Shown here in pieces: positions 1-8,584 of a DNA stretch of 8,584 nt (within the stretch, counting starts at the first letter, position 1; each line of letters begins with the position of its first letter). Position numbers and translations under genes: made by a program. The notes below the pieces were generated by a model. It worked only from the letters and a program-made list of their open reading frames with translations, was not told where the DNA came from and made no database searches. This DNA comes from Thermoplasmata archaeon. GTDB taxonomy: Archaea > Thermoplasmatota > Thermoplasmata > Thermoplasmatales > Thermoplasmataceae. Location: contig JAJZYV010000060.1 in the NCBI GenBank assembly GCA_021797955.1, positions 1 to 8,584 on the forward strand. Direction: 5' to 3'.

Positions 1-27
1 CAAAGTTGAGAGGTAAGAATTTCATAG

Positions 28-211
28 AAGACACTCCATCAATTATCAAAAGAAGTTGCAAACCGGGATGAAATTGTTAAGCACAACAGACTGACCAGTT
101 ACAAAAAATAGAAAACTTAATGAAAGAGAAGGGATTGCCTTCAATAAATTACCTGAACAAGACGAAATCGATGAAGAATTAAGAGGACCAGAGGAGACTC
201 AAGCGGATTGA
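28..211 (+). pseudogene. Possible broken 3' end of an unknown gene
   Basis: Two adjoining plus-strand open stretches could be one damaged gene. The first, about 27 codons, contains KEVANRDEIVKHNRL and runs into TAG at 109-111, just after a run of six A. The second, in another frame, is open from 95 to the TGA at 209-211 and ends in the acidic tail LRGPEETQAD. A slip in the A-run would join them into roughly 60 residues of charged, helix-like sequence. I recognise no family. Each stretch is short enough to occur by chance, and the 5' part is stop-rich or outside the window, so this is a weak call. Confidence 0.25.
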
Positions 212-807: not shown

Positions 808-922
808 TTATTCAATCTTCCTTACCACAATCTCCCCTTTGACTTCATAAAATCCAATATGCTCGGATTCCGAGGATTTGAATTTCTTTTGCTATTTCCT
901 TATGGAGAGGCATTATTAATTA
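808..922 (-). pseudogene. AbrB-type DNA-binding protein remnant, copy 1
   Basis: Reading on the minus strand, the C-terminal half of an AbrB/SpoVT swapped-hairpin protein is visible: SSESEHIGFYEVKGEIVVRK, then IE and TAA (810-808). Upstream, the equivalent of the ITLPKEVAVKL segment appears as MPLHKEIAKEIQ beginning at the ATG 913-911, but in a different frame. A one-base shift near 877-884 therefore separates the two halves, and the N-terminal strand of the fold is not recognisable. The C-terminal 20 residues closely match the intact copy at 2923-3084. It lies about 80 bases downstream of the rhomboid-like gene on the same strand. It is a relic of one of four direct copies. Confidence 0.75.
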
Positions 923-998
923 CGTTACGACCAAATTTAGGATAGTATATTTTGATTTACACAGCTTTTGGGAAGTTAATTAAAAACACTTTTCTTAT

Positions 999-1700
999 CT
1001 AAAGTCTTAGCCACAACAATTTGTCTCCGAACAAAATTATATAAACAGAAGCAATCAGGAAGCCACTTAAAAATGAAATGAAATGTAAAAATGAGTCCAC
1101 TCCTGGTGCCACTGAAAAGAATAGTGGGAAATCTACGACTAAAAAGATGATTGTAATGCCAAAAAGCAAGACTGTAAAAACATAGGTTACCAATCCTCTG
1201 GCCCTCTCCGATCCTCCTAGTTTTATGTTGAAGGTACTGATCTCCTTTTTCCTTTTATGATAACAATATAATAAGTAAAATAGTATGTCAAAGATGGCAA
1301 TAAATGCGAGCGCACCCATGAATCCATAAACAATCCCGGATTGGCCAAGAGAATATCCATTTGGTGCGCTAAGCCAATAAACAATGAGATTTATAACATT
1401 GCCTATTACTGCTGATAGAAGGGATACCCATATTGAAAGCAAGTATCTTTTAACTCTCATGAATCTGCTGTACCGAACATTCGCTGCACAGAAGACTAAA
1501 GCATAAATTGCATAATCAACAACATTACCATCGCCATCGAATATAAACATAGAGGTAATTATTCCCCATGGCGTCTTTATACTGTTATAGAGAATGGGAG
1601 TGTTTGCTGTATATTTGAGTACGAGATACCCTGTTAAGAAAATAATAACGCCGAAAATAGGAAGGAGAAATTCATAACATATGCTATATTTTTTTTCCAT
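999..1700 (-). CDS. Rhomboid-like intramembrane serine protease
   Basis: A 233-residue, strongly hydrophobic protein with about six predicted membrane segments (roughly residues 11-31, 60-77, 87-110, 120-146, 169-190 and 203-225). The rhomboid active-site signature is present: GQSG at 119-122 followed by IVYGFMGA, placing the nucleophile at Ser121. A late histidine, His206 in SFLHFISFLSGFL, sits where family members carry the catalytic His of an AHxxG-type segment. The segment before the serine (GNVINL, 100-105) also resembles the rhomboid TM2-TM3 region, although the usual TM2 HxxxxN is not evident. Rhomboids cleave membrane proteins within the bilayer; the substrate here is unknown. It is flanked on both sides by same-strand AbrB-type remnants at 808 and 1820, so it looks like cargo of that array. 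The ATG at 1700 has an A/T box about 28 bases upstream, supporting a leaderless start. Confidence 0.75.
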   Translation of the reverse strand: MEKKYSICYEFLLPIFGVIIFLTGYLVLKYTANTPILYNSIKTPWGIITSMFIFDGDGNVVDYAIYALVFCAANVRYSRFMRVKRYLLSIWVSLLSAVIGNVINLIVYWLSAPNGYSLGQSGIVYGFMGALAFIAIFDILFYLLYCYHKRKKEISTFNIKLGGSERARGLVTYVFTVLLFGITIIFLVVDFPLFFSVAPGVDSFLHFISFLSGFLIASVYIILFGDKLLWLRL

Positions 1701-1724
1701 TTTTGAGCAGTCATTAAACTTGAG

Positions 1725-1732
1725 ATATTTAA
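1725..1732 (-). promoter_or_regulatory. TATA-like box of the rhomboid-like gene
   Basis: TTAAATAT on the minus strand is centred about 28 bases before the ATG at 1700, with no Shine-Dalgarno sequence between. The spacing matches an archaeal box A driving a leaderless transcript that begins near the start codon. Confidence 0.5.
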
Positions 1733-1819
1733 TGATGATTGTAATCAGACAAAACGTGGAACCAGTTTCTTAAAAAAATGAAAGAAGTTATGTTAAATCA
1801 TGCTTCAGTAGGTCTTGTG

Positions 1820-1940
1820 CTACTCAGTCTTCCTTACCACAATTTCCCCTTTGACCTCATAAAATCCTATACTATCTGATGCTTTCAATCTCCTCGTAAA
1901 TCTCAGATGATCCCGTTTGATTAAGATTCATGTCTGTTGA
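1820..1940 (-). pseudogene. AbrB-type DNA-binding protein remnant, copy 2
   Basis: The minus strand encodes RRLKASDSIGFYEV followed by KGEIVVRKTE and TAG (1822-1820), the C-terminal half of the AbrB-type fold. Upstream the match to the intact copy at 2923-3084 is interrupted by deletions and frame changes: a stretch resembling TCC-AAG-GGC-TCA-TCT of copy 3 is present around 1900-1923, but the PKEVAVKL segment is largely lost. No usable start remains. It lies divergently upstream of the AbiV-like gene at 2094, the same arrangement as copies 3 and 4 with their plus-strand neighbours. The 5' boundary is approximate. Confidence 0.7.
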
Positions 1941-2063
1941 TCATGAGATCATAAAAGATGGTTTCGGTGAAAGTTCTTGGAAAATCTCTTTCTTGGTTTG
2001 ACTTTTAAGATCGACTTAAGACAATAAGTTTTGCAATAATGTCTATCATATTCTGCCTGAGAA

Positions 2064-2073
2064 ACTTAATACA
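2064..2073 (+). promoter_or_regulatory. TATA-like box of the AbiV-like gene
   Basis: ACTTAATACA is centred about 26 bases upstream of the ATG at 2094. No Shine-Dalgarno sequence is visible before the start, so a leaderless mRNA is the simplest reading. Confidence 0.35.
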
Positions 2074-2093
2074 TTGTATAGACTTTTAGAATA

Positions 2094-2831
2094 ATGGAAA
2101 TTGAACCTACGTTAGATGGCTTGGATCTTTGCGTTAGAAACTCTCTTAGACTATTCGAAGACTCATGCACGCAAAGACTATCATTGCCTACTGTAGGCGC
2201 AATACTAGAGATTGGCCTAGAGGAAGCAGTGAAAGGATTCCTTATTTTAATATGCTTAGAAAAAAATGTATTGATTTCAGGGAAAAAATTGATAGATTTG
2301 GATAAATCGCTTTCCGACTTTATAGTTAGCGTAAGAGAATTTAATAATAAGATAGATTGTCAAAAACAGTTAGTCTCTGCATTCAGAAAACATAAGGTTA
2401 AGACTAACATACTAAATTTTCTCGGAGGTTTAATTAGCTTCGTTCCTCCTGAATCGGTCACAATAAAAGATTTTACAAAAGATTTTCTCAATGGCTTAAA
2501 TCCAAATCTGGGAGATGATTCACTTGAAAAACTTTTAAGTTCTCCCTCCTTCACTGATTTCATAAGTCAGAATATGAATGCTACCCAAAGCGTACTTATG
2601 AGACTATCGGGGAAAATCAAAGAGTCAGGATTTTATGTTGATTGGACAGGGTCATGTTTCAGGTATCCAGAAATAGATAATAACACAATACTAAGGATGG
2701 CTAATTTTTTATTTAGCGTCATAGCTGGTTTCAAGATGCTTACAGGTTTACTTCAAATTAAATTGCAAACTAAATTGGATGTTAGCAATCTTTACAAAGA
2801 ACTTACTGTATTGGAGGATCGACTGAAATAG
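2094..2831 (+). CDS. AbiV-like abortive infection protein
   Basis: A 245-residue soluble protein whose landmarks fit the AbiV family. An N-terminal helix RNSLRLFEDSC (15-25) is followed by a second helix containing GLEEAVKGFL (41-50), matching the family's EE-x2-K core helix. Then come a basic His-containing segment FRKHKVK (97-103) and a late KESGFYVDW (176-184), the conserved glycine-tyrosine-valine-aspartate region of AbiV proteins. In lactococci AbiV blocks phage development; the mechanism in archaea is unknown. AbiV helices resemble HEPN-type all-helical folds, but no RxxxxH RNase motif is evident here. The start at 2094 is supported by the upstream A/T box and by a shared N-terminus with the broken paralogue at 4143 (PTLDGLDLCVRNS versus PTLERFRLCVKNS). 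Copy 2 of the AbrB-type gene lies divergently upstream and intact copy 3 lies convergently downstream. Confidence 0.7.
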   Translation: MEIEPTLDGLDLCVRNSLRLFEDSCTQRLSLPTVGAILEIGLEEAVKGFLILICLEKNVLISGKKLIDLDKSLSDFIVSVREFNNKIDCQKQLVSAFRKHKVKTNILNFLGGLISFVPPESVTIKDFTKDFLNGLNPNLGDDSLEKLLSSPSFTDFISQNMNATQSVLMRLSGKIKESGFYVDWTGSCFRYPEIDNNTILRMANFLFSVIAGFKMLTGLLQIKLQTKLDVSNLYKELTVLEDRLK

Positions 2832-2922
2832 CTCATCCTGTCCGATTTAAAATCGAAGTATTTCTATAGATAACCCTATGAAGGTTATGTAAGTAACGTT
2901 GTAGGATAATATAGATGTCTGG

Positions 2923-3084
2923 TCACTTAATCTTCCTTAGCACAATTTCTCCATTAACCTCATAAAATCCTATATGTTTCGATTCTGAAACATTTAACTT
3001 CACTGCAACTTCTTTAGGTAGAGTGATTCTCAAAGATGAGCCCTTGGATGAGGTTCTTGTCACTGCTATAAGTTTATCTGGCAT
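2923..3084 (-). CDS. AbrB/SpoVT-type small DNA-binding protein, intact copy 3
   Basis: A complete 53-residue gene from ATG (3084-3082) to TGA (2925-2923). The layout is that of an AbrB-type swapped-hairpin domain: an N-terminal strand LIAVTRTSSKGSSLRITL (5-22), the PKEVAVKLNVSES loop-helix (23-35) with the family's characteristic P-K-E, and a C-terminal hairpin HIGFYEVNGEIVLRKIK (37-53). Such proteins dimerise and bind DNA as transition-state-type regulators or as antitoxins of toxin-antitoxin pairs. It is the only unbroken one of four related copies here. It faces away from the DUF4145-like gene at 3208 and converges on the AbiV-like gene ending at 2831, so it could control either. An AAATTTAA box about 26 bases before the ATG supports this start and a leaderless transcript. 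Confidence 0.8.
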   Translation of the reverse strand: MPDKLIAVTRTSSKGSSLRITLPKEVAVKLNVSESKHIGFYEVNGEIVLRKIK

Positions 3085-3103
3085 TGGTAGGGTAATAAGT
3101 GGA

Positions 3104-3116
3104 TTAAGTTAAATTT
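3104..3116 (-). promoter_or_regulatory. TATA-like box of AbrB copy 3
   Basis: AAATTTAACTTAA on the minus strand is centred about 26 bases upstream of the ATG at 3084. The same AAATTTAA core at nearly the same spacing precedes copy 4, so the promoter was duplicated together with the coding region. Confidence 0.55.
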
Positions 3117-3207
3117 GTTCATAAAATAAACATTTGCAAAGTAAAGATTTACATTTTTGATAATATAGGGTGAGAATCTTTATTTTCAATAAATATTTCT
3201 CATCTCA

Positions 3208-3857
3208 ATGGCAAGATATTACCAACCGAGAGTTAATACTTATGCTTTTAACTGTCTACATTGTGGGGTCTACGCCAAACAAGATTGGTACTTCACTTTT
3301 GTTTATGGAAATGCCGACAAAGACAATCCTAATCAGACCTATAATCGTAAAAAACTGGAAGAAATGAAAGTTTCCAAATGCACCCATTGTGATGATATTG
3401 TAATTTGGTCTCGAGAAAATATGCTGATTCCACGGGGAATGGAAGTCCAAGAGCCCCCAGGAGATGTACCAGATAAAATAAAGGAAATTTACATTGTAGC
3501 TGGAAAGGTTTTCAATGATTCTCCTCGGGCATCAGGCGCTCTAATAAGGATGGCACTTGAACTACTTCTTCAGTTCATTAATAAAAACGATCTTGGATTG
3601 GATAAGAACATAACTGAGTTGATAAAGTCAAGGACCCTGGACAACTCATTAAGGACCCATCAATTTTGAGAGTAAATAGAAATGATATAATGCAATCAGG
3701 ATAGATTAAAATTTTTGAGGATAAAGATGATGTGGCATATTTGTTTGATCTTTATAATATGGTTTTTGAAGAGATGATTACAAGACCTAAAAAGCTTGAA
3801 GAGTATTACAAAAAGATACCGGAATCTAAAAGAAAGGAGATTGAAAATAGAAAGTGA
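3208..3857 (+). pseudogene. DUF4145-like zinc-ribbon protein, frameshifted
   Basis: The first 153 codons (3208-3669) carry a split zinc ribbon, CLHC at residues 16-19 and CTHC at 58-61, followed by IPRG, VPDKIKEIY and SPRASGALIRMALELLL. This is the order seen in DUF4145 proteins, which often occur alone or fused to nucleases in defence settings; their biochemical role is not established. The frame then ends early in LRTHQF. The missing C-terminus continues in another frame from about 3660: SILRVNRNDIMQSG, a TAG at 3702-3704, then IKIFEDKDDVAYLFDLYN and finally EEYYKKIPESKRKEIENRK with TGA at 3855-3857. One frameshift plus one nonsense codon thus explain the break, and the reconstructed length of about 215 residues is reasonable for the family. 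The ATG at 3208 has only a weak A/T box upstream. AbrB copy 3 is divergent to it. Confidence 0.75.
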
Positions 3858-3907
3858 CCTCATATGGAACCGAAAACTAAATCACAACACAAAGTAATCT
3901 ATATCCA

Positions 3908-4065
3908 TCAAATCTTCCCTACCATAATCTCCCCTTTGACTTCATAAATTCCTATATGTTCCGATTCTGAAACATTCAACTTATCTGAAATCGATTTCGG
4001 AATTATTATCCCTAATGAAGAGCCCAGTTTTGATGCCTTCATTACTGCGATTAATTGTCTGGCAT
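3908..4065 (-). pseudogene. AbrB-type DNA-binding protein, copy 4, 1-base frameshift
   Basis: The minus strand starts with ATG-CCA-GAC like copy 3 (ATG-CCA-GAT) but lacks one base in the fourth codon (around 4055-4058). The ATG frame hits TAA at once, while the rest reads on in another frame: LIAVMKASKLGSSLGIIIPK, SISDKLNVSESEHIGIYEV and KGEIMVGKI with TGA at 3910-3908. Apart from the missing base the whole fold is recognisable, so inactivation looks recent. An internal ATG at 4042-4040 could give a 44-residue product lacking most of the first strand, so residual function cannot be excluded. It is divergent to the AbiV-like remnant at 4143. Confidence 0.75.
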
Positions 4066-4085
4066 TTTGAGTTATAAGGGGAATA

Positions 4086-4098
4086 AATTAAATTTATA
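4086..4098 (-). promoter_or_regulatory. TATA-like box of AbrB copy 4
   Basis: TATAAATTTAATT on the minus strand is centred about 26 bases upstream of the ATG at 4065. It shares the AAATTTAA core and the following TCC-CTTAT pattern with the promoter of copy 3. It lies inside the 77-base gap separating the divergent AbrB and AbiV-like remnants. Confidence 0.5.
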
Positions 4099-4142
4099 GA
4101 TAAACTCCATTAATTCTATACGCGGCTTGAGCTTAAAAGTAT

Positions 4143-4343
4143 ATGAAATGCAAACCGACCCTTGAGAGATTTAGACTATGTGTTAAAAATTCTGCCTTGC
4201 TCTCCAAAAATGCATATGCATATGGTATGTCTCTTCTAACAATTGGTGCTATATCAGAGATTGAGTAGTAAGAATCAGCACTTTATTAGAATCAGTTCCA
4301 TTTGTTTAAGGCATTTTTACAGTCTATGGAATTTCCTTTATAA
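4143..4343 (+). pseudogene. AbiV-like protein remnant, 5' end only
   Basis: From ATG 4143 the frame reads 41 codons containing KPTLERFRLCVKNSALL and SLLTIGAISEIE, aligning with the N-terminus of the AbiV-like protein at 2094 (EPTLDGLDLCVRNSLRL and SLPTVGAILEIG). It then meets TAG-TAA at 4266-4271 exactly where the paralogue has Leu-Glu of the core EE helix. It continues in frame as ESALY, another TAG (4287-4289), then NQFHLFKAFLQSMEFPL and TAA at 4341-4343. The rest of the gene, about 170 codons, is not recognisable downstream. This is a nonsense-ridden, truncated second copy, divergent to AbrB copy 4. Confidence 0.7.
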
Positions 4344-4655
4344 TGAGGTCTCGAATACGTTGTTAAGAAATCTTCACCGTTTTTATTTTAAGCCCTGCCA
4401 GTCATGAAAAAATTACCTAATCCCTTTTTCTTTATTTCCGCCTAGCTCTGCATGTTTTCGTTTCCTCAAGTCCGAATTGTGCAGGATCACTTCAATTTTA
4501 ACGCAAATCGCTACATTATTTATGTACATTTAAAGAGGTTAAGAAATCATTTTAATTTATTTGGTAAAGGATTGAGAAGAAGGAATAAATGTTTTTTTGA
4601 ATAACAGAAATCAGTTCATTTTCGCTTCATTTTGCCTAAATTTGATTCAGATTTT
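4344..4655. other. Stretch with no supportable gene
   Basis: About 310 bases between the AbiV-like remnant and the end of the restriction operon. It is AT-rich with frequent stops in every frame I followed, and it contains no continuation of the AbiV-like reading frame that I could recognise. T-runs on the plus strand near 4380 and 4590 are not placed to terminate the minus-strand operon ending at 4656. Confidence 0.5.
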
Positions 4656-5390
4656 TCAGAAAGGTGCATCGAGCTTGAATTTACTAAACGTCGCTTCCAA
4701 AGGTTCTCTTAGGTCTTTGGGAAATAAAGATGAATAATTCCTAAGTATGAAAGGTGAAAAGTCTTCTTCGGTCCAACCAACTGCCATAACCACTATTGGA
4801 AACAAATTTTGTTGGTCTTCAGCGATCATCCTCTCAATTTTCCGCTTTTCACTAGAAAGATCAATTCCTTTTCTCTTCCGTCCCAGGCTATAGGCAAAAC
4901 CATACAAGTATTCTGGTTCTATATTTCTAAACCAATCTCTATCTTGATTTTCTTCTTTGATCTCTTCCCACTTAACAGTTCCGATTTTTCTCGAATGACG
5001 GAAAGGTACTTGTCTAATCCCTTTTGATTCATTAAAACCAGTGATACCCTCAAAGTAAGCCTTCATTTCTTTAGGCATATTCCTATCCCAACTACTAGGC
5101 GAGAGTTTACTTTCAATCAGGAATAGCCTAACGGTTTTTCCAGAACGTATGTCCTGAAAAGCAAGGTCAGGTCTCCTTAAGTTTCCAACTCCTCTCTTAG
5201 GACCAACTTGCCTGTACTCTTTACCATTATGCACTAGGTTTATAGTTTTCCAAGAGCCATGTGGTGGATTGTAATATACTAAATGAAGAAATTTAATTTC
5301 TTCCGCTAATCTTAAGATAAGATTGTCCACATGGTCTTCGCTGATATGGTCAGGTTGCCATTTTTTCAAATCTTCAACAGTCAGATTCAT
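4656..5390 (-). CDS. PD-(D/E)XK restriction endonuclease-like subunit
   Basis: I place the start at the ATG 5390-5388, giving 244 residues, because it forms an ATGA overlap with the stop of the upstream 510-aa gene. The frame is open further upstream to 5456, but that would overlap the neighbour by 70 bases. The nuclease core is clear: RRPDLAF (residues 72-78) followed after 18 residues by RLFLIESKLS (88-97), so Asp75, Glu93 and Lys95 fit the PD-(D/E)XK metal site. An acidic helix (ILRLAEEIKFLH, 25-36) could supply the usual upstream Glu. It is the third gene of an operon with a winged-helix regulator and the 510-aa protein, and is divergent to a DNA methyltransferase. It is therefore probably the cleavage component of a restriction-modification system, either alone or with the 510-aa protein. 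Specificity cannot be read from sequence. Confidence 0.7.
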   Translation of the reverse strand: MNLTVEDLKKWQPDHISEDHVDNLILRLAEEIKFLHLVYYNPPHGSWKTINLVHNGKEYRQVGPKRGVGNLRRPDLAFQDIRSGKTVRLFLIESKLSPSSWDRNMPKEMKAYFEGITGFNESKGIRQVPFRHSRKIGTVKWEEIKEENQDRDWFRNIEPEYLYGFAYSLGRKRKGIDLSSEKRKIERMIAEDQQNLFPIVVMAVGWTEEDFSPFILRNYSSLFPKDLREPLEATFSKFKLDAPF

Positions 5391-6919
5391 AACACCATAC
5401 CATTTTCCCATTTGTCCGAAATCACACAAGTTGCAAATTTTGCGATTTCTCTCCAAAGATTGTTAGTCATTGATGAAGACCCATTGTTATTTTCTCGAAT
5501 GGCTGTAATTAACATATCTTTCCAATTTTTAGGAATGAGGTCACTATAGAGTAATACTATACGAGCTCCAAAGTAACCATCGCTCCCAAAAAGAGCTCTT
5601 GCCAATCCAACTAAACCTTTATCTGGTCTTGAAAAGGCAGGTCCACCTGTATCTTTAACATAACCTGCAATAGGGAGGAATACAGCCGGTCTTTCCGATC
5701 TTTCAATATGTAAAATAACGGGGTCCTCAATCGAACGGTAAGTTTTCCTTAAAAGCCGAGAAAAATACATTTTGTTATTAATAATTGCAATTTCATTAGC
5801 ACCTTGCTTGTACGAAATGGGTATTAGTTTGCATTTTTTGGCAATATCGGTTTCTAATTCGACTTTGTAAGAACAATCTTTAGTCCAGTTTAAAAAATTT
5901 AGTGATTCTAAATTTTTAGAGTCACCATTGCGAATGCTCATTATCGGATTTATTTCTCTTTTGTATTTGGAATCCGTGCTAATATTCTTTTTAAAAGGAA
6001 TGCACGCCTTTTGGATGGCAGTTCCCAGAAGGTCAAATATAGTATTAGTAGGAATTTTGTTATCAAAAATGTAAGAAATCAATTCATTAGTTAAGATTTC
6101 GGGATTCTTAATAGACATCTCATTCTTCAAAACAGTAAAATCAGTTTCTAAGAAAAAAGATATTTGCTCACACATCTTGCGAAGACTCCGTTGAAGAACA
6201 TCGAAAATTGAATAACTCTGAGTTTTATCTAATGGGTCCTTCTCGAAAATATTCGACAGAATTAAGTTTGTCGTGAGTTCTACAAGGTCTTTTTCTCCAT
6301 CTGGCTCTTTTAAAGCGGGAGAAACATAGCCAGAATTTAGTCCGGCATTATGCCAAGCATCTGCGATGTAAAAAGTTAAAGATGGCATCTTTCTTTCAAA
6401 CATCATTATTACTTGAGCTATTTGTATTATTGTATTTGGGTGTCGTAAACTTCTAAAATCACCATCCTTAATTTCAGCATCGCATGTGGGGACAACGTAT
6501 ACAAAGGGTATTCGTTTTTCGGAAGCTTGAGATATACGAGGAAATCGTTGCCAGGCATTATTTCCAGCACCTATCGCATCATTAAATTCTAGGCCTAAAA
6601 TTACTTCTCCAATTTTTTCCGTTGCGCGCATTCTGCATAATATCACATCTGGATCCTCATAACCAATATATGGGTGTCTTTCATTCTCCCAATCATCATA
6701 TCTACCACAAGGTAAAAGACCGATTTCTATTGTTGCAGAATCTCCATTTTCGTACTCAAAAAGGTAAATTGGTCTATCAATGAAACCATCAATTCCTTTA
6801 AAATCCAAACCTTTGACCATAGGATATTTTATAAATAACTTGCAAAATTTGTGGCATTCATGTAAATTATCTCCATAAACAAGAAACCCATAAAACATAA
6901 CTAATACCTTCTTTCTCAT
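5387..6919 (-). CDS. Putative restriction subunit, 510 aa, family not firmly recognised
   Basis: This large soluble protein lies between the regulator and the PD-(D/E)XK gene, with ATGA overlaps at both ends (6919-6916 and 5390-5387). That implies coupled translation of a three-gene operon. Near the N-terminus, DPDVILCR (89-96) is followed by GEVILGLEFNDAIGAGNNAW (104-123), the strand-turn-strand spacing of a PD-(D/E)XK site with Asn113 in place of the lysine. The run of conserved-looking residues continues QRFPRI and RIPFVYVVPTCDAEI. Near the C-terminus is GGPAFSRPDKGLVGLARALFG (425-445), another motif-like block. No helicase, GTPase or methyltransferase motif is visible. It may be the recognition or second catalytic subunit of the restriction enzyme; the nuclease reading of Asp91, Glu111 and Asn113 is inference. 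Divergence from the methyltransferase supports a restriction role. Confidence 0.55.
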   Translation of the reverse strand: MRKKVLVMFYGFLVYGDNLHECHKFCKLFIKYPMVKGLDFKGIDGFIDRPIYLFEYENGDSATIEIGLLPCGRYDDWENERHPYIGYEDPDVILCRMRATEKIGEVILGLEFNDAIGAGNNAWQRFPRISQASEKRIPFVYVVPTCDAEIKDGDFRSLRHPNTIIQIAQVIMMFERKMPSLTFYIADAWHNAGLNSGYVSPALKEPDGEKDLVELTTNLILSNIFEKDPLDKTQSYSIFDVLQRSLRKMCEQISFFLETDFTVLKNEMSIKNPEILTNELISYIFDNKIPTNTIFDLLGTAIQKACIPFKKNISTDSKYKREINPIMSIRNGDSKNLESLNFLNWTKDCSYKVELETDIAKKCKLIPISYKQGANEIAIINNKMYFSRLLRKTYRSIEDPVILHIERSERPAVFLPIAGYVKDTGGPAFSRPDKGLVGLARALFGSDGYFGARIVLLYSDLIPKNWKDMLITAIRENNNGSSSMTNNLWREIAKFATCVISDKWENGMVL

Positions 6920-7215
6920 TTGCTGTTAATTTTGCCTGGTTTCCCATTAAGGTTAGACGAACTAATTTTCTGAAGTTCTCTTAGGATTTCTAGCCCGGAA
7001 TCCAGTAAAAAGTAACTTATTGTTCTAGTTTTAGAATAAGTTTTACCAATTAATTTTTCATTTTCCATTGACCTGAGAATCCTACTAACCGATTGTCTGG
7101 AAACCGAAATAGTAAAAGCAATCTCGCTAGGAAGCATAGGCCCCACTGCAAGTAACTTTAGAATATCAATTCTGTACTTTCCACCTTTTACCCAGTTAAT
7201 TTTTTCCAGATCCAA
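6916..7215 (-). CDS. Winged-helix (ArsR-like) regulator of the restriction operon
   Basis: A 99-residue protein with a winged helix-turn-helix: YRIDILKLLAVGPMLPSEIA (13-32) leads into the recognition helix SVSRQSVSRILRSMENEKLI (37-56) and a wing with KTRTISYFLLDSGLEIL (62-78), after which the tail is basic and Lys/Ser-rich. It has no cysteine pair or other ligand site. The start is TTG at 7215-7213; no upstream in-frame ATG was found, and the TATA-like box at 7237-7250 lies about 26 bases upstream, supporting this rare start on a leaderless mRNA. Its stop overlaps the ATG of the 510-aa gene. First position in the operon and the tandem repeat beside its promoter suggest autoregulation, a role like that of controller proteins in bacterial restriction-modification systems, though those are usually of another HTH type. 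Confidence 0.75.
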   Translation of the reverse strand: MDLEKINWVKGGKYRIDILKLLAVGPMLPSEIAFTISVSRQSVSRILRSMENEKLIGKTYSKTRTISYFLLDSGLEILRELQKISSSNLNGKPGKINSK

Positions 7216-7236
7216 TTTATGACTAATTGCTATTAG

Positions 7237-7250
7237 TGTTTATATATATA
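7237..7250 (-). promoter_or_regulatory. TATA-like promoter of the regulator-restriction operon
   Basis: TATATATATAAACA on the minus strand is centred about 28 bases before the TTG at 7215. It is the strongest box A candidate in the window and places the transcript start at or within a few bases of the start codon. Its distal end is overlapped by the tandem repeat at 7248-7269, so a protein bound there would touch the BRE/TATA region. Confidence 0.65.
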
Positions 7251-7269
7251 GTTAACATATAGTTAACAT
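7248..7269. repeat. Tandem 11-bp repeat, candidate operator
   Basis: ATAGTTAACAT occurs twice back to back (7248-7258 and 7259-7269). Each copy has the palindromic core GTTAAC, so two dimer half-sets would lie on the same face of the helix one turn apart. The position, just upstream of and overlapping the operon's TATA box and about 105 bases before the methyltransferase start, fits an operator for the winged-helix protein. Confidence 0.6.
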
Positions 7270-7373
7270 GGATATAAGTTTGGAGTTAGATTGCAATAAC
7301 GTTTTAATGGTATGCTCGCTATCCCTGCATTATGTTAATTTTTGTTTCTTGGAAAAGGGGGAAGTAGCTTAAA

Positions 7374-8399
7374 ATGCCAAATCGATCACATTATAATTCG
7401 GGCCATATTGGGATGAATATACTAAAAAAGAAGAGGAAATCGCACAGTTCTATGAGGCGCTACTATTTGCAACAAACCACACACCATGGCATTTATATTG
7501 AAAACGCCATAGATTTTCTAAAAATAGTTCCAGACTCGTCGATTCAGTTGATACTCATAGACCCACCATACAACATAGATGTTGCCTCGTGGGACAATTA
7601 TGAAAACTACATGGATTGGGCAAAAGAGTGGATTTCACAAATTGAGCGTATATTGACCGATGATGGTAATTTCGCAATTTTTGGAGGATTCCAATACCAA
7701 GACGAAGCAAAAACAGGAGACCTATTGGAAATTATGCATTATTTGAGACATAACACCAAGCTGAGATTCGTTAACTTCATTGTTTGGTATTACAAAACTG
7801 GAATGAGTGCTCAAAGATTTTTTGCAAACAGGCACGAGGAAATCCTATGGTTTGCTAAGTCTAAGAAATATTATTTTAATTTAGATAGCGTTAGGACACC
7901 GTTTGATGAAGAGACAAAAATAAAATATAAAAAAGATAAAAGGTTGAATCCAGATAGTATAGATAAAGGAAAAAATCCAACCAATGTCTGGGAAATAGAA
8001 CGATTAGTTGGTAATGCAAAAGAAAGGGTAGGCCATCCTACGCAAAAACCAATTGAAGTGATAAGGAGACTTATCAAAGGGCTCTCATATCCAGGTTCAC
8101 TAGTTATGGATTTTTTTGCCGGTTCTGGTACCACAGGAATAGTGGCAATTGAGGAGATGAGAAACAGTATATTGGTAGACAACGATCCAAAGACTCTCGA
8201 ATATTTTGAAGAGCATCTCAAAAAACTAAATGGACGGAATGTGAACACGCTATTAAATTACGGTACACATTATAATGTTATTAAGGACAAATCACTAGCG
8301 GACTTCTTGAAAATTGTGAGCGACGAACGAAGTAAGGCTACGGTTGTAGAACTTGTGGAGAAGGGTGAACAAAGGTCTAATGATATGAGTACCAAATAA
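7374..8399 (+). CDS. Beta-class DNA methyltransferase (adenine-N6 or cytosine-N4)
   Basis: This 341-residue protein transfers a methyl group from S-adenosylmethionine to an exocyclic amino group in DNA. Catalytic motif IV, LILIDPPYNID (59-69), comes first. HPTQKPIEVIRRLIKGL (221-237) and the AdoMet-binding FAGSGTT (248-254) come last, which is the circularly permuted beta order seen in HinfI- and RsrI-type enzymes. DPPY favours adenine-N6 methylation but does not prove it. The target-recognition region would be the stretch between, including NPTNVWEIERLVGNAKERVG (201-220). Length is normal for the class. The first 35 residues are basic and precede the core, so ATGs at 7413 or 7452 are alternatives; GGGGGAAG at 7357-7364 is a possible ribosome site for the 7374 start. 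It is divergent to the regulator-nuclease operon and is the presumed protective partner. Confidence 0.85.
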   Translation: MPNRSHYNSGHIGMNILKKKRKSHSSMRRYYLQQTTHHGIYIENAIDFLKIVPDSSIQLILIDPPYNIDVASWDNYENYMDWAKEWISQIERILTDDGNFAIFGGFQYQDEAKTGDLLEIMHYLRHNTKLRFVNFIVWYYKTGMSAQRFFANRHEEILWFAKSKKYYFNLDSVRTPFDEETKIKYKKDKRLNPDSIDKGKNPTNVWEIERLVGNAKERVGHPTQKPIEVIRRLIKGLSYPGSLVMDFFAGSGTTGIVAIEEMRNSILVDNDPKTLEYFEEHLKKLNGRNVNTLLNYGTHYNVIKDKSLADFLKIVSDERSKATVVELVEKGEQRSNDMSTK

Positions 8400-8497
8400 T
8401 TTTAGTTCTTTAAGATTAATATGTTTGAGAATTTGAGTCGAAACTGAGGGAAATAAGAGAGAGGTTATTAAATCTATGTCTAAAACGACATTGTCAA

Positions 8498-8584
8498 TTA
8501 TCGGTTGATAGATAGTGATGGTACCAGAAGGATGTCTTCAATAATCCTTCCTTGGTCTTGAACCTGTGCTTGAACGACCATGAC
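8498..8584 (-). CDS. Possible C-terminal end of a gene cut by the window edge
   Basis: On the minus strand a frame runs from the right edge through 28 codons, including VQAQVQDQGRIIEDILLVP, to TAA at 8500-8498. It could be the end of a gene starting outside, or a fragment beginning at the ATG 8581-8579. No family is recognised and the length is compatible with chance. Confidence 0.25.
   Translation of the reverse strand, partial: VMVVQAQVQDQGRIIEDILLVPSLSINR

Follow-up and report, generated by a model that had tools for sequence, protein, structure and literature searches.

The 8,584-bp stretch of DNA from a Thermoplasmata archaeon analysed here (hereafter the window) carries four direct copies of a short gene with the AbrB/MazE fold, all on the minus strand, which are named c1 to c4 from left to right. 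With a confidence somewhat above even, we read the window as a defence island eroded by insertion sequences (IS), in which a solo AbrB family is linked to defence genes and recombines between its copies. In this model, a solo gene of the AbrB/MazE fold, encoding 53 aa and driven by a short promoter of its own, would have come to sit beside several defence genes, and its protein would repress its own promoter and probably also the divergent defence gene. Judging from the fold, the promoter and the position of the gene, we infer an autorepressor that is possibly also a repressor of its divergent neighbour. The AbrB blocks might act as short homology patches by which alleles, and sometimes also flanking defence genes, become reshuffled, and the array would have been built by separate arrivals or rearrangements rather than by recent duplication in place.

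The nucleotide family profile (nhmmer) places the copies at 812-918 (c1), 1824-1886 (c2), 2928-3084 (c3) and 3911-4065 (c4), with start-to-start spacings of 1012, 1103 and 982 bp. The nearest genome has five close copies in 2.1 Mb, decayed ones counted; at that density, the chance of three further copies within 3.3 kb is about 8e-08 by a simple Poisson estimate. Only c3 (2923-3084, minus strand, 53 aa, Pfam MazE_antitoxin E 3.5e-08) is intact. The full-length c4 (3908-4068, minus strand, nhmmer E 7.1e-29) has, by its reading frames, a frameshift near codon 4, c1 (808-970, minus strand, nhmmer E 2.4e-19, the end at 970 being an estimate) is a decayed pseudogene, and c2 (1824-1886, minus strand, nhmmer E 6e-09) retains only its 3' end, corresponding to profile positions 90-158. 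AbrB/MazE/SpoVT proteins bind DNA as swapped-hairpin dimers. Membership of PF04014 is supported for c3 (33.7 bits vs a cut-off of 24.7), with c4 slightly below at 24.4; the score for the AbrB model TIGR01439, 22.4, lies below its cut-off of 28.3, and a PDB sequence search with the AbrB protein returned no match at E 0.1. A clean truncation of c1 was rejected in favour of decay, because its 5' part can still be aligned to two of the four comparison copies, G091_C6 and LSA5_C23b (0 of 1000 shuffles each); no alignment was detectable to LSA5_C56 (311 of 1000 shuffles) or c3 (204 of 1000).

The first-pass annotation of the window had described four same-strand direct copies at spacings of 985-1103 bp with exactly one gene in every interval. 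The number, the orientation and the upper spacing are borne out, the lower spacing becomes 982 bp, and the intervals are three rather than four: they hold a rhomboid-like, an AbiV-like and a DUF4145 gene, the AbiV-like remnant listed as a fourth lies beyond c4, and the interval between c2 and c3 additionally contains a transposase remnant. The array observation is thus partly confirmed and stands with these corrections.

The clearest case of recombination between AbrB copies was found in a related genome. Locus LSA5_C25 is orthologous to G002_C31, with flank identities of 264/300 upstream and 249/299 downstream. Within its AbrB gene, nucleotides 0-118 are closer to LSA5_C23a (110/119, vs 89/119 to G002_C31), and nucleotides 119-161 are closer to G002_C31 (41/43, vs 27/43 to LSA5_C23a). 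Of the informative sites, 22 of 23 are LSA5_C23a-like in the tract at nucleotides 4-118 and none of 14 in the part that follows. None of 400,000 permutations was as good as this mosaic, which was the best of 210 triplets among nine copies and has a Bonferroni bound of about 5e-4. We infer a gene conversion tract with either LSA5_C25 or G002_C31 as the probable recipient, because a simple assembly mis-join would have switched the flanks, and the flanks did not switch. A second locus, G003_C14, is apparently a chimera joined near the 3' end of its AbrB gene, as judged from informative sites: 22 of 24 are G101_C20-like between nucleotides 24 and 128 (34 of 48 from -40 to 140), against 37 of 170 from +190 to +600, where the flank aligns with G091_C6, and upstream of about -50 neither locus matched. 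LSA5_C56, a weaker case, has about 40 bp of 3' flank in common with LSA5_C25 and G002_C31 and upstream sequence that is not.

Therefore, recombination between AbrB copies, as proposed for the window in the first-pass annotation, is supported in relatives and was not seen in the window itself: the junctions inside the repeated gene that it had suggested looking for occur in LSA5_C25, by permutation test, and in G003_C14, by informative sites. It was also true that the window copies agree best at their 3' ends. Because c2 lost its 5' half at an IS remnant and the 5' part of c1 decayed, ordinary causes suffice and this agreement needs no special recombination within the window. Of the 45 pairs formed by ten loci from elsewhere, 28 have greater similarity in the 3' segment, as do 28 of 36 when LSA5_C23a is left out. 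In the open-access literature (subscription journals were not covered), none of the titles listed deals with recombination among AbrB copies of defence islands.

What most close copies share is a promoter-plus-ORF (open reading frame) block of about 200 bp: even when up to 5 kb of either flank is included, their homology is limited to positions -36 to +162 or so, and the flanks are mostly unrelated. Longer shared stretches join c3 to LSA5_C56 (to -92) and to G101_C20 (to -115), LSA5_C56 to LSA5_C25 and G002_C31 (to about +200), and G003_C14 to G091_C6 (to +760). In the syntenic pair LSA5_C25 and G002_C31, the alignment extends to 7,466 bp (80% identity) and the AbrB genes are 80% identical as well; because these flanks do align at equal AbrB identity, the missing flank homology elsewhere is real and not merely a matter of age. 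In c3, the conserved upstream block from -36 to -1 (3085-3120, minus strand) comprises two imperfect 9-nt tandem repeats; in nine copies, 5-8 of the 9 positions are equal as a raw count. A position weight matrix (PWM) built from this block of ten copies scores 42.0 at c3, itself in the training set, and 31-47 at nine of the ten training copies, values that are high by construction, while the maximum at non-AbrB sites (19 loci and 172 kb of control DNA) was 14.8, in control DNA. The block is probably a leaderless promoter that contains an operator.

Many copies adjoin defence operons that are unrelated to one another, and genes for HsdM, GmrSD, pAgo, PD-T7-4 and DNA methyltransferases are found directly beside close copies. 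When 59 neighbours of each kind were compared with PADLOC, those of close AbrB matched 273 families, those of distant AbrB 143 and those in control regions 12, these being counts of redundant families rather than proteins and the close neighbours coming from just 12 stretches. Neighbour ORFs of at least 130 aa were used; the distant set represents 59 of 125 ORFs, and the control set 59 of 140, drawn at random from 20 stretches that had been chosen by contig number or at round coordinates. The exclusion of ORFs with ambiguous residues cost at least two genes of G002_C31, an HsdM-like one and one that synteny marks as GmrSD-like, and G004_C31 was left out of the gene-by-gene neighbour scan. On LSA5 contig C45 (L049, 2551-4812), the 5' half of an AbrB gene, preceded by the upstream block, is flanked by a prokaryotic Argonaute gene at a distance of 61 bp (PADLOC pAgo 4e-199) and, in the opposite direction, by a GmrSD gene. 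Separately, five loci (L054, L049, L059, L087 and L056) have in common a stretch of about 80-340 bp that lies 1.2-3.1 kb upstream of AbrB, with differing intervening sequence; in L054 it covers the start of a gene that presumably encodes the type I methyltransferase HsdM.

The family itself is large and highly conserved. A search of 5.8 billion proteins gave 261 AbrB family clusters, and 112 of the 120 clusters listed have a length of exactly 53 aa, with a mean pairwise identity of 85%. One database relative, 85% identical and on a 766-base contig, is labelled Thermodesulfobium, which we take to be a mislabelled bin. AbrB matches at E 1e-6 occur in 45 of 117 genomes of the order, with close copies in far fewer, and matches at E 1e-10 occur in 12 of 400 genomes drawn from the class, all 12 already known from the order search. 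Among the genomes searched, close family members are confined to one order of Thermoplasmata. Carriage of the 53-aa AbrB by phages or plasmids was considered and is unsupported: of 115 stretches of viral contigs that matched a pattern none was confirmed as an AbrB relative, and the plasmids searched gave no match. The nearest genome, LSA5.bin89, has five close copies, of which two lie in a shorter second array on contig C23 and one is a 5' half only.

This second array allows a single comparison of cargo. It has AbrB, DUF4145 and AbrB in the same order as c3-c4, with 64% identity over 1,248 bp and 71% over the best 642 bp. The homology between the window and C23 ends near the 3' end of the first AbrB and about 25 bp upstream of the second, and the next genes differ on both sides. 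The AbrB-DUF4145-AbrB block is therefore conserved while its surroundings have turned over, which agrees with breaks at AbrB and also with IS-driven turnover.

Several observations weigh against the favoured reading. The only comparable interval (1/1) holds the same cargo, contrary to the different cargo between conserved AbrB copies that had been anticipated for relatives. Since the sole second array carries the same DUF4145 gene, exchange of cargo between window copies is unsupported as an established fact, and cargo swapping through AbrB is possible. The relatives compared are metagenome bins or other genomes and not strains of the window organism. As for regulation, no cargo promoter has an AbrB upstream motif scoring above control DNA; therefore, it is proximity that suggests a putative control of cargo by AbrB. 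The motif is also low at G091_C6 (13.4), c4 (9.7) and LSA5_C23b (9.7), and LSA5_C25 and G002_C31 lack the -36 to -1 block although their AbrB frames align. With the upstream block absent, expression of these two AbrB genes may differ. Besides the redundancy of the PADLOC counts, the link to defence is blurred by distant AbrB, which also lie near defence genes, so that part of this association is common to AbrB genes of all kinds. Further, the SLFN_AlbA_2 neighbour in G101_C20 has no PADLOC match, and four close loci (G091_C3, G091_C6, G003_C14 and G084_C22) have no recognised defence family among the immediate neighbours scanned; a ResIII gene lies about 1.4 kb away in G084_C22 and a methyltransferase-like gene about 1.1 kb away in G091_C6. 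Finally, divergent orientation as a strong rule was rejected, as it is only moderately common: among rows that have an upstream ORF, it occurs in 11 of the 15 close ones, where a single pseudogene counts twice, and in 26 of the 44 far ones, the ORFs being unvalidated.

The most serious alternative, which we regard as distinctly less probable than the favoured reading yet far from negligible, is that the window is an ordinary defence island, in which a common AbrB arrives with its cargo by gene transfer and IS elements do the shuffling, so that the rearrangement of cargo would owe nothing to AbrB homology. In its favour, the 8.6 kb of the window contain four remnants of IS or IS-like elements. 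At the left edge, the 3' end of an IS66-family transposase gene (1-104, plus strand) is 95% identical at the DNA level to G091 C1 and matches residues 449-470 of that transposase at 3-68 (tblastn 2e-08), the ORF being DDE_Tnp_IS66 (5.4e-27). The 5' end of an IS5-type transposase gene (DUF772/DDE_Tnp_1) with preceding sequence (1883-1991, minus strand, DNA matches of 72-83%) recurs in 11 of 117 genomes of the order, two candidates being scored per genome; its protein-level match is weak (18 aa, E 0.005) and covers the start of the transposase ORF. Because this remnant begins no more than 3 nt from the cut edge of c2, the simplest explanation for the shortness of c2 is a deletion where an element had inserted. 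The next remnant, from the 5' end of a transposase gene of IS256/Mutator type with preceding sequence (4356-4508, minus strand, DNA matches of 71-83%), gave no protein-level match in the window by tblastn; the reference ORF in L142 matches Transposase_mut at 4.6e-101. The end of a repeated ORF (8484-8583, minus strand) is 97% identical to LSA5 C178 in DNA (tblastn 96.6% over 29 aa), and we take this ORF to be transposase-like, although Pfam gave it no transposase match. An ordinary island would also fit the same cargo in the sole second array and the alignment of LSA5_C25 with G002_C31 over 7.4 kb, with no turnover at AbrB. On the other hand, the mosaics in LSA5_C25 and G003_C14 suggest that homology between AbrB genes does play a part, in gene conversion at least, and the flank breaks between the window and C23 fall in short stretches beside AbrB.

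A bolder extension of the favoured reading is that, in this order of Thermoplasmata, the roughly 200-bp AbrB-plus-promoter unit would be a portable seam, at which copies recombine and defence genes are joined, lost or replaced, each next to a ready-made repressor, and that the window would be a decaying array of four such seams. We consider this improbable, though worth stating. The mechanism first proposed for the window was half right: AbrB copies do appear to recombine in relatives, and the exchange of cargo is unproven.

The genes between and beside the copies bear on the two remaining alternatives. The rhomboid gene lies on the minus strand like AbrB, and the three other cargo genes are head-to-head with an AbrB copy. 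The rhomboid-like intramembrane protease (999-1700, minus strand, an open frame of 233 aa) scores below the Pfam cut-off (Rhomboid E 0.0043, 17.7 vs 22.6); its catalytic residues Ser121 (of GxSG) and His206 are invariant in nine aligned sequences, the window one included, and three of nine database relatives are annotated PF01694, two of these just 28-30% identical. The HEPN AbiV-like protein (2094-2831, plus strand, 245 aa), head-to-head with c2, has a predicted model whose top VIA-align row is AbiV; Foldseek with this model gave nothing at E 0.001, and a PDB sequence search with the AbiV alignment gave weak SidC/HxlR matches alone, taken as chance. The DUF4145 HEPN/PD-T7-4-like gene (3208-3857, plus strand), head-to-head with c3, is broken: a three-frame translation against two intact relatives has it open to 3669, with the C-terminal part in another frame at 3732-3857, and it matches the PADLOC PD-T7-4 model at 2.7e-34 over positions 1-133 of 211, compared with 3.9e-62 over 1-206 for the LSA5 relative. 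An AbiV-like N-terminal remnant (4143-4262, plus strand) stands outside the array, head-to-head with c4, and is 45% identical to the window AbiV over 40 aa. Homologues of these genes also occur without a detected AbrB: none was found in 2.7 kb scanned around the DUF4145 gene of G049, near the AbiV homologue on LSA5 C178 (a gene about 1.2 kb from the contig end), or in the stretch searched around a distant rhomboid homologue on LSA5 C78. Therefore, the cargo is not dependent on AbrB. The G049 DUF4145 gene (contig C275, L135, 544-1221, Pfam 4.3e-12) is intact.

Duplication in place of an AbrB-plus-partner unit, followed by divergence and partner replacement, is unlikely. The same strand and similar spacing would fit it, as would the two units in which AbrB is head-to-head with an AbiV-like gene. 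However, the pairwise DNA identity of c3 is 70% to c4, 72% to c1 and 80% to the remaining 3' end of c2, against 82% to G091_C6 and 80% to both LSA5 C56 and LSA5 C25; c4 is likewise nearest to G091_C6 (78%), and identities among the 11 copies that are intact or nearly so (c3 plus 10 others outside the window) lie at 61-90%. Since the window copies are no more alike than copies of other genomes, recent tandem duplication, the other mechanism in the first-pass annotation, is rejected, an outcome that this annotation had itself named as refuting, with the proviso that scattered members of related genomes, rather than of the same genome, were compared. Further, the AbiV remnant is 47.5% identical to five other relatives vs 45% to the window AbiV, over just 40 residues. 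An ancient duplication blurred by gene conversion is possible. Least likely of all is a toxin-antitoxin reading, in which every AbrB would pair with the HEPN cargo gene that diverges from it and neutralise the product: AbrB-fold proteins are known as antitoxins (MazEF, Kis-Kid, PemIK; PMC2701414, in part), DUF4145 is a HEPN family (PMC3710099, in part), the Pfam name of AbiV is HEPN_AbiV and three of four cargo genes are head-to-head with AbrB, but the portions at hand of the same two papers describe type II pairs as usually one operon, whereas c2, c3 and c4 diverge from the adjoining HEPN genes, the same AbrB family also lies beside HsdM, pAgo and GmrSD genes, and the G049 DUF4145 and C178 AbiV homologues have no AbrB in the stretches described above.

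To the right of the array lies a type II restriction-modification (R-M)-like set (4656-8399, mixed strands, PADLOC REase_II and MTase_II). Two minus-strand ORFs that overlap (4656-5456 and 5387-6919, PADLOC REase_II) divide the restriction-enzyme model between them; they cover model positions 58-452 and 490-621 and represent either a two-gene enzyme or a broken gene. Between these and the DNA methyltransferase gene (7374-8399, plus strand, Pfam N6_N4_Mtase 2.7e-56, PADLOC MTase_II) is a gene for a small winged-helix (wHTH) regulator (6916-7215, minus strand), possibly a controller protein. No known RNA element reached gathering thresholds in the window.

Especially in archaea, it is an open question by what means genes enter and leave defence islands, and another how newly arrived defence genes are controlled. 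If the favoured reading is true, a regulator found repeatedly next to unrelated defence systems, with recombination between its sites, would answer both questions for one lineage in a concrete and testable way, and the 53-aa AbrB with its upstream motif could be used as bait for unrecognised defence genes in Thermoplasmata.

Defence islands, which Makarova and colleagues reportedly described in 2011, are said to cluster R-M, HEPN, GmrSD and pAgo genes with IS remnants, as in the present case; the difference here is a repeated regulator gene that separates successive cargo genes within 3.5 kb. Loci with shifting defence systems have been compared across 58 strains of Streptococcus suis (PMC5398294), and the likeness, from the available part of that paper, is one place with different defence elements in different strains; there, certain loci were followed across strains of one bacterium, whereas here copies of one gene mark many sites, seen across genomes rather than strains. 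Among individual systems, the window DUF4145 gene matches the PD-T7-4 model (PMC9519451, in part) and the AbiV-like model has AbiV (PDB 9bj7, partial record) as its top VIA-align row, but both are archaeal and distant, and the former is broken. A further close parallel is with the solo AbrB/MazE-type antitoxins (COG2002, PF04014). In the largest families, more than 50% of the genes are solo toxins or antitoxins according to the accessible sections of Makarova et al. (2009, PMC2701414), where regulatory roles were suggested for them. Like these, the window protein is a small AbrB-fold DNA-binding protein without a toxin in the same operon; it differs in belonging to one 53-aa subfamily with its own upstream block, which lies beside unrelated defence operons and appears to recombine.

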